The position numbers and the translations under genes are program-made. From an uncultured Paracoccus sp. (lineage in GTDB: Bacteria > Pseudomonadota > Alphaproteobacteria > Rhodobacterales > Rhodobacteraceae): DNA of 64,000 nt. Below are positions 5,976-10,641 of this stretch, in pieces (position 1 is the first letter of the stretch; every line of letters starts with the position of its first letter). Location of the stretch: assembly GCF_937873615.1 (NCBI RefSeq), contig NZ_CALMYP010000012.1, positions 1 to 64,000 of the forward strand, read 5' to 3'. The notes under the pieces were generated by a model, which was not told the origin of the DNA, searched no databases, and was given only the letters and a program-made list of their open reading frames with translations.

Positions 5976-6566
5976 CTAGTCACCAATCGGTGTTGCGGGG
6001 GCTTTCGGCGCGATATCCGGCATATCGGCCGCCCCGCCGGGCGGTATGTCGGGATCGAAAAGGTCCTCGATGAACAGGCTCAGCAGTTGGTGGCGGTTGG
6101 CAACGCCCGCCTTGCGATAGACCGCCGCCGTCTGCGCCTTCACCGTGCCTTCCGAGGTGCCGCGCAGCCCGGCGATCTCGGCCACGCTCAACCCCTTGAT
6201 CGCAAACAGCGCCACGTCGCTTTCCGCCGGCGACAGGCCCCAGTCGGAAAAGCGCTGCTCGACATGGTCCATGAAGGCGCTCTGGGCGCGATGCAGCCGC
6301 GCCTCGGCCTCGCGGCGGCGGCGCAGTGACAGGACCAGCATCCGCGCGCCCAGCCCGATCCCGGCGATCAGCCCCAAAGCCGCGCCGATCTCCAGATATT
6401 CCTGATATTGCCAGGCCAGCGGCTCGTAATAGATGCCCATGACCGACAGCAGCATGTCGCTGACGAGATACAGACAGCAGACCACCTGCAAGGCCAGAAT
6501 GGCCAGCAGCGGCAGATGCCGAAACCAGGCGGTTCGCGCCGCCCGGCGTTTATCAGTCGTCGTCAT
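5976..6566 (-). CDS. Membrane-anchored LuxR-type helix-turn-helix regulator
   Basis: A 196-residue protein starting MTTTDKRRAARTAW. Two hydrophobic helices (about residues 16-36 and 52-76) are followed by a basic linker and a LuxR/GerE DNA-binding domain. That domain runs from LSPAESDVALFAIKGLS through TVKAQTAAVYRKAGV. There is no response-regulator receiver or autoinducer domain, so any signal is probably sensed at the membrane. Its start lies inside the last codons of the preceding acidic-protein gene (14-base overlap), which suggests coupled translation. A role in controlling the two upstream secreted proteins is an inference from context. The target genes are unknown. Confidence 0.85.
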   Translation of the reverse strand: MTTTDKRRAARTAWFRHLPLLAILALQVVCCLYLVSDMLLSVMGIYYEPLAWQYQEYLEIGAALGLIAGIGLGARMLVLSLRRRREAEARLHRAQSAFMDHVEQRFSDWGLSPAESDVALFAIKGLSVAEIAGLRGTSEGTVKAQTAAVYRKAGVANRHQLLSLFIEDLFDPDIPPGGAADMPDIAPKAPATPIGD

Positions 6567-7053
6567 CACTGTCGTCGCTGTCGCTGTCGTCGCTATCGCG
6601 GTCGTCGCGGTCGTTGTCACTATCGTCGTCGCCATCTCCGTCGTCGCGATCGTCATCATCGCTGTCGTCATCATCGTCGCTGCTGCCGGAGCTTTCGCCA
6701 CCTGAACCGCTGCCAGAACCGCTGCCGCTCGATCCGCTGCGCGAAGCGTTGTCGCTGTCGGACCCGCCGTCAGAGCGGCTGCCACCCTCTCGGCGGAGGA
6801 GGTCGCGCAGCAATTCTCCGCTGCGCGGATCGACGACGATTTCCCGGCGCATATCGCCCCGCCGCGCGCTGATGATGACCTTGCCCAGCAACGAGCGGCG
6901 CACCTGAATCTGCCTGTATCCCTGGGCCTGCAATTGCGACGCCACCTGCCCGGCCACATCGCGCGTCTGGGCAAGCCCGCTGAACGGCACGACCGCCAGC
7001 ATCAGGCTCAGGATCAGCCGCCGCAACATGATCGACATGGTCCGATACAACAT
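6553..7053 (-). CDS. Secreted PepSY-like protein with Ser/Asp-rich acidic tail (paralogue B)
   Basis: A 166-residue protein with an N-terminal signal peptide ending at PFSGLAQ. A small PepSY-like domain of about 60 residues follows (LQAQGYRQIQVRR ... REIVVDPRSGELLRDLL). After that comes a Gly/Ser run and a tail made almost entirely of Asp, Ser, Gly and Arg. I chose the ATG at 7053 because AAGGGG lies about 11 bases upstream. ATG codons at 7038 and 7029 are alternatives that keep the signal peptide. The domain is clearly related to that of the upstream gene at 7165-7704. Calcium binding or a polyanion role for the tail is a guess. I do not know a characterised homologue. Confidence 0.8.
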   Translation of the reverse strand: MLYRTMSIMLRRLILSLMLAVVPFSGLAQTRDVAGQVASQLQAQGYRQIQVRRSLLGKVIISARRGDMRREIVVDPRSGELLRDLLRREGGSRSDGGSDSDNASRSGSSGSGSGSGSGGESSGSSDDDDDSDDDDRDDGDGDDDSDNDRDDRDSDDSDSDDSDDDD

Positions 7054-7129
7054 CACACCGGCAACCCCTTGAAAGAACCGAAGGCGGGCGCGGTCGCACC
7101 GCCCCACCCCGTTCTGCCGCAAGAGCAGT

Positions 7130-7156
7130 ACTGCGGCAAGAAATCCCTGCCGCAGT
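7130..7156 (-). repeat. Inverted repeat between the two acidic-protein genes
   Basis: A perfect nine-base stem (ACTGCGGCA / TGCCGCAGT) with a nine-base loop lies in the gap after the 7165-7704 gene on the minus strand. No T-run follows, so it is not a standard intrinsic terminator. It could be an mRNA-stabilising hairpin or a partial transcription block between the two genes. Confidence 0.5.
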
Positions 7157-7164
7157 GCCGTTCA

Positions 7165-7704
7165 TCAGTCGTCGTCACCATCGTCATCGCTGTCGTCGTC
7201 ATCGCTGTCGTCACCGTCGCTGTCGCCGTCACGACCGTCATTATCATCATCGTTGCCATCGTCACTGTCATCGTCACGATCATTGGCGCCGTCGTCACGA
7301 TCATCGCCATCGTCGCGGTCATCGCGGTCCCGGTCACCATCGTCCCGGTCATCGCTGTCCCGGTCGTCGCTGCCATCGCGACCGTCATCACCGTCATCGT
7401 CGCGGTCACGCGGGTCATTGCGATCATCCGCGGCATCGGCGCGGTCATCGGCCCGCTTGCCACCCGAAATCGTCTCGCTCTCGCTCTTGACCACTTCGCC
7501 GGTCGCGAGGTCATAGGTGATCTCGACCTTCTGATCCCCGCGCCAGGCTTCGACCTCCATCTGGCCGTCATCGCGGCTGATCTCGATATCGGTAAAGCCC
7601 TGATCGGTCAGCGAGCGTGTGACCCGCTCGTCATTGCTCTGCGCCTGCGCGGCACCAAAGCTCAGCATCAAGGCGGTGGCGGCCAATCCGAATGTCATAC
7701 GCAT
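7165..7704 (-). CDS. Secreted PepSY-like protein with Asp/Arg-rich acidic tail (paralogue A)
   Basis: A 179-residue protein with a clear signal peptide (MRMTFGLAATALML...AQAQ, cut near residue 22). A PepSY-like domain follows (about 23-82: LTDQGFTDIEISR ... KVEITYDLATGEVVKSE). The last ~97 residues are more than half Asp, interspersed with Arg, Gly, Ser and Asn. AAGGGA lies eight bases before the ATG at 7704. It is first in a same-strand set with its paralogue at 6553-7053 and the LuxR-type gene at 5976-6566. The tail suggests cation binding or an unstructured periplasmic polyanion, but no function is established. Confidence 0.85.
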   Translation of the reverse strand: MRMTFGLAATALMLSFGAAQAQSNDERVTRSLTDQGFTDIEISRDDGQMEVEAWRGDQKVEITYDLATGEVVKSESETISGGKRADDRADAADDRNDPRDRDDDGDDGRDGSDDRDSDDRDDGDRDRDDRDDGDDRDDGANDRDDDSDDGNDDDNDGRDGDSDGDDSDDDDSDDDGDDD

Positions 7705-7860
7705 GTCAGTCCCTTTCTGTCCGTCGCCGGCAAGCCCCGGCGCCCGATCAGCCTGCGCTTTCCCTCGGCTGCCGGCCATTCGCCCAAGGGCCTAAAATCC
7801 GGCTATAAACGAAAGTTTATCCCGCCCACCGCCCGGTCTGGCGGCCCTGACCGGGACATG

Positions 7861-9753: not shown

Positions 9754-10641
9754 TTACAGCAGGAAATTGTCTGCATGAAGCTCTGATGTTTGAACGCCAA
9801 TGAGCGTGATGCTCGATCCGCCGCCCGTGGTGATAAAGTTGATAACGACATCGCCACCGCTATTGGCGATGGTGCCATCGGCGATCAGGTCGGTCATCTG
9901 ACCTTCCAGACCGAGCGCCGACAGGTCGATGACATCGCCGTCGTAACCGTCTTCGAAATTGTAGACGACGTCGTGACCATGCCCGGAAATGAAGCCGAAG
10001 GTGTCATGGCTGCCGTCGCCGCCATAAAGCTCATCATCCCCGGTGCCGCCCCAAAGCTCGTCCGTACCTGAGCCGGCATAGAGCGTATCCTCTCCGTCGC
10101 CGCCGAAAATCACGTCGTCGCCACTGCCGCCGCCAAGCAGGTCATGCCCGTTATAGCCGTACATCTCATCATTGCCGTCCTGGCCCCAGAGGCTGTCATT
10201 CCCGGTGCCTGCGCCGATCAGGTCATCTCCGCCACCGCCGACGATAATGTCAGTGCCGGTGCCGCCCCAGATGGTGTCCATCCCTTCGCCGCCGAGCAGG
10301 TAGTCGTTATCCGCACCACCGCCCAGAAGATCGTTGCCATTGCCTCCGCTGAGCGTGTCGGCGCCGGTGCCACCCCAAAGGGAATCGTTGCCCTCACCGC
10401 CCTCAAGCGAATCATCGCCCGCGCCGCCGCCGAGGTTGTCATCGCCAGTGCCACCCCAGAGAGAATCGTCCCCCATGTCGCCCGCGCCGGCCCAGATCAT
10501 GTCATCGCCGGCATTGCCGAACATCCGGTCGGCACCTTCGTAACCGATGATCGTGTCGTTGCCAGGAAGACCGGCAATCAGGTCGTCAAGCTCGGTGCCA
10601 AGAATCTCATCATTTTCGTTTGTTCCGTAAAGGGTCGCCAT
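9754..10641 (-). CDS. RTX calcium-binding repeat protein (hemolysin-type repeats)
   Basis: A 295-residue protein starting MATLYGTNENDEILG with AGGAGA upstream of the ATG. Residues ~8-215 are about 20 glycine/aspartate nonapeptides of the GGxGxDxLx type, which form calcium-filled parallel beta-rolls outside the cell. Several carry an unusual SLWGGTGDD variant. The C-terminal part (FEDGYDGDVIDLSALGL ... ADNFLL) resembles the serralysin-type secretion domain recognised by type I exporters. There is no catalytic domain and no N-terminal signal peptide. No ABC exporter or outer-membrane channel gene is nearby, so an unlinked type I system would be needed. Function unknown. Confidence 0.9.
   Translation of the reverse strand: MATLYGTNENDEILGTELDDLIAGLPGNDTIIGYEGADRMFGNAGDDMIWAGAGDMGDDSLWGGTGDDNLGGGAGDDSLEGGEGNDSLWGGTGADTLSGGNGNDLLGGGADNDYLLGGEGMDTIWGGTGTDIIVGGGGDDLIGAGTGNDSLWGQDGNDEMYGYNGHDLLGGGSGDDVIFGGDGEDTLYAGSGTDELWGGTGDDELYGGDGSHDTFGFISGHGHDVVYNFEDGYDGDVIDLSALGLEGQMTDLIADGTIANSGGDVVINFITTGGGSSITLIGVQTSELHADNFLL

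Follow-up and report, generated by a model that had tools for sequence, protein, structure and literature searches.

Genome comparison indicates that three neighbouring genes of an uncultured Paracoccus sp., here called A, B and C, are a real conserved unit and more than a chance arrangement, since the same gene order recurs across the family Rhodobacteraceae. We propose, with moderate confidence, that this unit would be an autoregulated envelope operon acting as a sensor and buffer loop for a periplasmic divalent cation, probably Ca2+, in which PepSY or EF-hand proteins would gate a one-component membrane regulator; the proposal is built on sequence patterns and on analogy with described systems. 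How bacteria sense periplasmic calcium is poorly understood, and PepSY domains have no settled function; a unit with a single regulator, a single candidate operator and two small exported proteins offers a testable case.

The window is the whole stretch of DNA analysed, 64,000 nucleotides in length (NCBI RefSeq assembly GCF_937873615.1, contig NZ_CALMYP010000012.1, positions 1 to 64,000). The three genes lie on its minus strand in the order A-B-C. Gene A (7704-7165) encodes 179 residues with a signal-peptide-like N-terminus, an acidic PepSY_2 domain and an Asp-rich tail (about 7168-7470). Gene B (7038-6553, with an alternative internal start possible at 7029) encodes 161 residues, again with a signal-peptide-like N-terminus, followed by a basic PepSY-type domain and an Asp/Ser/Gly tail (about 6556-6792). 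Gene C (6566-5976, 196 residues) encodes a LuxR-type one-component regulator with two membrane helices and a GerE helix-turn-helix (HTH) domain at about 6078-6236. Signal peptides and membrane helices of the three proteins were assigned by eye, and gene starts in relatives were set by script. The ATG of C (6564-6566) falls within the end of B, whose stop codon is at 6553-6555, and this overlap of 14 nt in different frames (6553-6566, minus strand) would possibly fit translational coupling; the three genes may also be co-transcribed. On the strand of A, some 200 bp upstream of it, lies the gene of ATPase inhibitor subunit zeta, and the unit is further flanked by a Clp-type ATPase gene and a SAICAR synthetase gene, both on the plus strand. 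At 9754-10641 of the minus strand, about 2 kb upstream of A, lies the gene of an RTX protein that carries nonapeptide repeats of the calcium-binding type (HemolysinCabind, E 6.5e-43).

An earlier note made from the window alone had described A and B as neighbouring secreted paralogues with PepSY-like domains and Asp tails, and the profile comparisons and tail codons agree with this description, the signal peptides being judged by eye. Protein A scores 30.4 bits with Pfam PepSY_2 (E 3.9e-7; cut-off 24.3), the PepSY class being taken as PF13670/PF03413. The B protein of the window by itself gave no PepSY match in the Pfam scan. That the domains of A and B are related follows from the B alignment, in which 17 of 72 members reach E 0.01 or better with PepSY_2, and from an hhalign comparison of the B profile with the A profile (72 columns aligned, 98.8%, E 4.8e-17). 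The motifs DLATGEVV and DPRSGELL, which the note had placed at the same position of the two domains, do coincide in this comparison. A search by sequence for solved-structure relatives of B gave seven weak matches, the best at E 0.14, none of them a PepSY entry.

Past codon 80, 55 Asp codons are found in A and 32 in B of the window, with both GAC and GAT in use. Over the non-redundant loci, the median Asp content is 51% for the A tails and 37% for the B tails, and the tails vary in length and sequence between species. Asp and Glu together reach at least 25% in 66 of 67 A tails and in 73 of 90 B tails; the remaining 17 B tails fall below this level, so that an acidic tail is not universal in B. 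The folded domains of the window carry net charges of -9 (A) and +6 (B). No A domain is net positive (0/44), and the B domain is net positive in 59 of 72 cases and not in the other 13. An N-terminal twin-arginine-like motif was seen in 59/90 B and 1/67 A proteins.

The LuxR-type domain and the two transmembrane segments that the earlier note had read in C, on the same strand, are likewise recovered. The GerE/LuxR HTH scores 28.3 bits in Pfam against a cut-off of 23.5, and C carries two hydrophobic stretches that appear by eye as two membrane helices with a short loop between them. In and beside this loop, P49, W52 and E56 are invariant in the C alignment, and E59 nearly so. Neither an autoinducer-binding nor a receiver domain was found in C, the Pfam scan at E up to 1 giving HTH-type families only, and no solved-structure relative was found by sequence at 0.001. 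In its HTH region (residues 89-171 of the 197-residue translation), C also matches NF047608, the NCBIfam LIC13292 family transcriptional regulator, at E 3e-16, with 60 bits against a cut-off of 200 and the first 79 of the 166 profile positions unmatched; a literature search for LIC13292 gave no paper. The nearest named relative of the window C in the tree belongs to Paracoccus sp. UBA889 (71%).

The three genes travel together in related genomes, a point on which the earlier note had staked its idea of a unit. In a drawn sample of 110 genomes of the family, 66 have matches to the C profile and 48 to the B profile. Among the C matches of at least 200 bits, 43 of 45 have B directly upstream on the same strand; the two exceptions are a locus cut by a contig end (G019) and one where B is replaced by an EF-hand protein bearing an Asp tail (G062). 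Conversely, 73 of the 77 places matched by the B profile have a C within 3.5 kb downstream, and of the remaining four, two sit at contig starts. In G104, a B-like domain (C1:3420120-3420275) stands apart, some 11 kb away from the operon and without a C match next to it. A second set of loci, assembled from a scan of named genomes (80 loci), the 30 best matches listed and the window, was searched for the A and B domains; these loci were chosen by similarity to C and, in contrast to the drawn sample, neither they nor the counts made on them are random. Once L001, which is the window again, was dropped, the 110 loci were reduced by C similarity to 91 non-redundant ones, and 55 loci have 1.9 kb of sequence upstream. 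B is present in 90 of the 91, the exception (L076) being cut by a contig end, and A in 67.

In the genus of the window, C of the window type (at least 230 bits) occurs in 7 of 121 genomes and the unit is therefore rare there. The six other genomes all possess A, B and C. Five of them have the core palindrome described below, three with one exact site and two with an exact and a single-mismatch site before tandem units; the genus member G781 has the order B-C-A and lacks the core palindrome. The order B-C-A was noted at L032 and L200, where the palindrome is absent at up to one mismatch. Tandem double units were observed at L066, L197/L207 and L198/L208, and in G684 and G772 each tandem unit has its own palindrome, one exact and one with a mismatch.

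The candidate operator of the unit is the palindrome ATAAACGAAAGTTTAT at 7805-7820, before gene A and with no strand assigned, a perfect ATAAAC-N4-GTTTAT which is the sole copy at up to one mismatch in the 3.86 Mb window genome. The extended candidate operator region (7755-7820, minus strand) would consist of the palindrome and two weaker TAAACC-type repeats that follow it in many relatives; the latter are poorly kept, and not clear, in the window. Of the 250-bp stretches that precede the first recognised gene (103, reduced to 86 non-redundant ones), 50 contain the dyad TAAA-N6-TTTA, against 0 expected from shuffles. At up to two mismatches, ATAAAC-N4-GTTTAT occurs at 47 of the 63 loci where A comes first and at 3 of the 23 where B does, against 0.32 of 86 for the shuffles. 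It is missing at this threshold from 16 of the 63 A-first loci. Within 1.9 kb upstream of C, the exact TAAAC-N4-GTTTA is present at 44 of 55 loci and the reversed pattern at none (0/55), and no copy of TAAAC-N4-GTTTA was found downstream (0/50 loci). Where A was not recognised, an exact core site stands upstream of B at 20 of 29 loci, near-copies included; of 16 further loci, taken because the site was missing near A, one (L094) carries it elsewhere upstream of C. The simplest reading is that C probably binds this palindrome and regulates its own operon. A simple sigma-70 pattern found no promoter after the palindrome (0/47 loci), and the only promoter-like match in the window falls inside gene A.

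Wider regulons were searched for and rejected. Fourteen of the 20 exact ATAAAC-N4-GTTTAT sites in the 110 genomes are at an A-B-C operon, as compared by eye with the list of C and B matches, and the six others are no more than the 15 control sites would suggest. With up to one mismatch allowed, the shorter palindrome gave 4 sites in the window genome against 25 for its reversed control, and the three extra sites are not above chance.

In G062, the place of B directly before C is taken by a gene whose product begins like a signal peptide, contains an EF-hand motif and ends in an Asp tail; the N-terminal part of this protein has matches in 44 of 388 family genomes. At least four more EF-hand proteins beside a C were found among the matches listed (G199, G286, G152 and G312), each in the order EF-hand protein-B-C. 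Thus at least five of the 388 genomes searched have an EF-hand protein upstream of C, four as EF-B-C and one as EF-C. By the pattern PS00018, all five proteins show at least one EF-hand loop before the tail, and three show two; on its own, this pattern turns up in 5 of 78 A tails as well, and in none of 112 B tails. With the Pfam EF-hand families, one of the five is above the cut-off, two match below it and two do not match. The core palindrome is found at four of the five loci (three exact, one with a mismatch) and is missing at G286. The EF-hand profile gave a single match in the first 111 loci, window included, at L102, which is the same protein as at G312. Among 22 loci without a recognised A, seven have an acidic open reading frame upstream of B, one of EF-hand type; the others have none at the threshold used, two of them having no room upstream. 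Acidic, apparently secreted proteins occupy the A position upstream of B at L035, L058, L065, L090 and L093, and no Pfam family was found for those of L035 and L093. Judged from these loci, the EF-hand cases keep the Asp tail and usually the palindrome, the folded domain of the A position being swapped for a calcium-binding type. It is mainly this swap that leads us to prefer a divalent cation, and among these calcium, as the signal, and the unit with an EF-hand protein instead of a PepSY protein provides the natural comparison.

In the mechanism that we propose, C would be held in the inner membrane by its two helices with a short periplasmic loop, and its cytoplasmic HTH would bind ATAAAC-N4-GTTTAT upstream of A and control A, B and C. 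A and B would be exported, and their PepSY domains would be periplasmic ligand proteins for the membrane and loop region of C, with its invariant P49, W52 and E56. The Asp tails would bind divalent cations, most likely Ca2+, Mg2+ being possible. Since the B domain is basic, the B tail acidic and the C loop marked by its conserved residues, a charge switch is proposed: with no cation, the acidic tail of B would mask its own basic domain; in the presence of the cation, this domain would be freed and would bind the acidic loop of C. The output would be more or less A and B, so that the loop would both sense and buffer the cation. More tentatively, the unit might be a periplasmic calcium homeostat of a new design, with a LuxR-type one-component membrane regulator gated by interchangeable secreted calcium-binding proteins of PepSY-Asp-tail or EF-hand-Asp-tail type, a cation-driven switch between basic domain and acidic tail, and its own operon as main or sole target.

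This mechanism is strengthened by the B-C linkage, the placement of the palindrome, the EF-hand swap, the charges taken with the invariant loop, the PepSY proteins beside distant relatives of C and the precedents of DbfQ, LanP and UipA discussed below. It is weakened by the A-first loci devoid of the palindrome (16/63), by the small number of EF-hand variants, of which one in five exceeds the Pfam cut-off, by the EF-hand pattern in A tails, and by B tails that are not universally acidic and B domains that are not net positive (13/72). Also against it, the loop of C is short for a docking site, and the Asp tails could bind cationic peptides equally well.

This last point leads to a possible, if doubtful, alternative with the same circuit and another signal. 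The Asp tails would be a bait for cationic antimicrobial peptides or would report outer-membrane damage, and B would relay to C as DbfQ does to DbfS. Polyanionic tails would be expected to bind polycations, and the abstract of the DbfQ report describes a DbfQRS pathway activated by outer-membrane perturbation and membrane-damaging antimicrobials (PMC12714742); the EF-hand proteins at the A position are nevertheless more easily explained by a divalent cation. The earlier note had suggested an envelope sensing unit, perhaps for divalent cations or for cationic stress, and this is partly borne out. Its regulatory side has gained from the conserved upstream palindrome, and the EF-hand swap favours the first of its two putative signals.

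In the family, 14 of 16 loci of more distant C relatives have a PepSY_2 protein alongside (10 of 10 checked with Pfam were confirmed) and 12 of 16 a cytochrome b561, and in the genus of the window all seven distant copies are arranged as PepSY-b561-C. Among 18 loci from a search at class level, nine have a PepSY or B match upstream within flanks of 1.5 kb. Outside the family, a B-C pair with an Asp/His tail is present at L173, and B was found by profile at L172. Operons that join a short PepSY_2 protein to cytochrome b561 and a LuxR-type regulator with two helices are recurrent in Alphaproteobacteria (L111-L114, L116-L119, L123, L127-L129, L203-L206 and L209-L211), and a literature search found no paper on the PepSY-cytochrome b561 combination. 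These operons resemble A-B-C in having a homologous C and a PepSY protein upstream; they differ by a single short PepSY protein without Asp tail, by the b561 gene in between and by the palindrome, which is found among them at L123 only. No b561 gene was found at the 110 Asp-tail-type loci within the flanks examined. The two types stand mostly apart in the C tree, where many forks are weak or open. Two C relatives, L122 and L130 (G009 and G052), have no B, PepSY or EF-hand match upstream; the room at L130 is only 342 bp, and another small protein with a signal-like start precedes C at L122. On these comparisons, the window type seems to branch off within a family of PepSY-partnered regulators; it has no b561 in the flanks examined, bears Asp tails and has a candidate operator of its own.

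The b561 operons (all seven genus copies, 12 of the 16 family loci) also invite an explanation that we find improbable, namely that C senses a membrane redox partner, as its b561-adjacent relatives may, the acidic proteins being merely an output, as a buffer or surface coat. The residue C30 in the first membrane helix of C, a Cys in 47 of 51 members, would suit such a role, which is opposed by the lack of b561 in the examined flanks of the Asp-tail-type loci and by the presence of the palindrome at only one b561-type locus. Lanmodulin is an EF-hand protein, and the EF-hand swaps resemble it in a further, very unlikely explanation in which A and B would be LanPepSY-like binders serving a lanthanide-dependent methanol dehydrogenase. 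This link was rejected, as co-occurrence with PQQ methanol/ethanol dehydrogenases in the 110 genomes shows no association: the 32 matches over the cut-off of TIGR03075, a profile that does not separate lanthanide from calcium enzymes, are unassociated with either gene (odds ratio 0.86 for C at 200 bits or more and 0.84 for B, p 0.83 in both cases), and the window genome has no TIGR03075 match at E 1e-100. The precedent for lanthanide binding by a PepSY protein is LanP (LanPepSY) of Methylobacillus flagellatus, which binds Ln3+ and Ca2+, and UipA of Microbacterium binds uranium (reviews among PMC11845868, PMC12482762, PMC7768729, PMC8963506 and PMC12004947). Both have PepSY domains, as A does and B in related form, and the accessible text of these sources names acidic residues for LanP and a negatively charged face for UipA. 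Unlike A and B, each has two PepSY domains, with no Asp tail mentioned in that text, and A-B-C is without PQQ dehydrogenase association. Finally, it is hardly credible that the genes are mere neighbours with tails drifting as low-complexity sequence, an idea to which the variability of the tails lends itself and which is refuted as to linkage by the 43 of 45 C matches with B upstream, and further opposed by the palindrome and by the recurrence of the tail on unrelated N-terminal domains.

Taken together, our preferred reading of A-B-C as a cation sensor and buffer loop is best compared with the PepSY proteins encoded beside two-component systems, an established class according to PMC12714742, which itself treats the function of PepSY domains as unsettled. 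In Vibrio cholerae, DbfQ binds the sensory domain of DbfS directly and shifts DbfS towards phosphatase activity, and in Pseudomonas aeruginosa two PepSY proteins, PA2658 and PA2659, are encoded beside BqsS (PMC12714742). As far as that text describes them, DbfQ-DbfR-DbfS and PA2658/PA2659-BqsS share with A-B-C the position of small secreted PepSY proteins directly upstream of a membrane sensor, and P. aeruginosa shares the pair of PepSY genes; feedback on the own operon, reported there for the DbfQRS type, would hold for A-B-C by inference. The earlier note knew of no described system of this make-up. In our literature searches, we came across no account of a one-component LuxR-type membrane regulator that has PepSY proteins as partners, and no paper on aspartate-rich PepSY domain proteins; the gating of two-component sensors by PepSY proteins is nonetheless known in DbfQ-DbfS, within what that source sets out. 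A-B-C differs from DbfQRS in that C is at once the membrane protein and the LuxR-type DNA-binding regulator. Neither a histidine kinase nor a response regulator was found beside A-B, C having only the HTH in Pfam and the nearest other genes being those of the Clp-type ATPase, ATPase inhibitor subunit zeta and SAICAR synthetase. The Asp tails of its PepSY proteins, and the replacement of A by an EF-hand protein, are further features that set it apart from the DbfQRS type. By analogy, A-B-C would work like DbfQ-DbfS; lacking kinase and response regulator, it is not a member of the DbfQRS-type modules. The unit suggests that PepSY proteins partner one-component membrane regulators besides histidine kinases.
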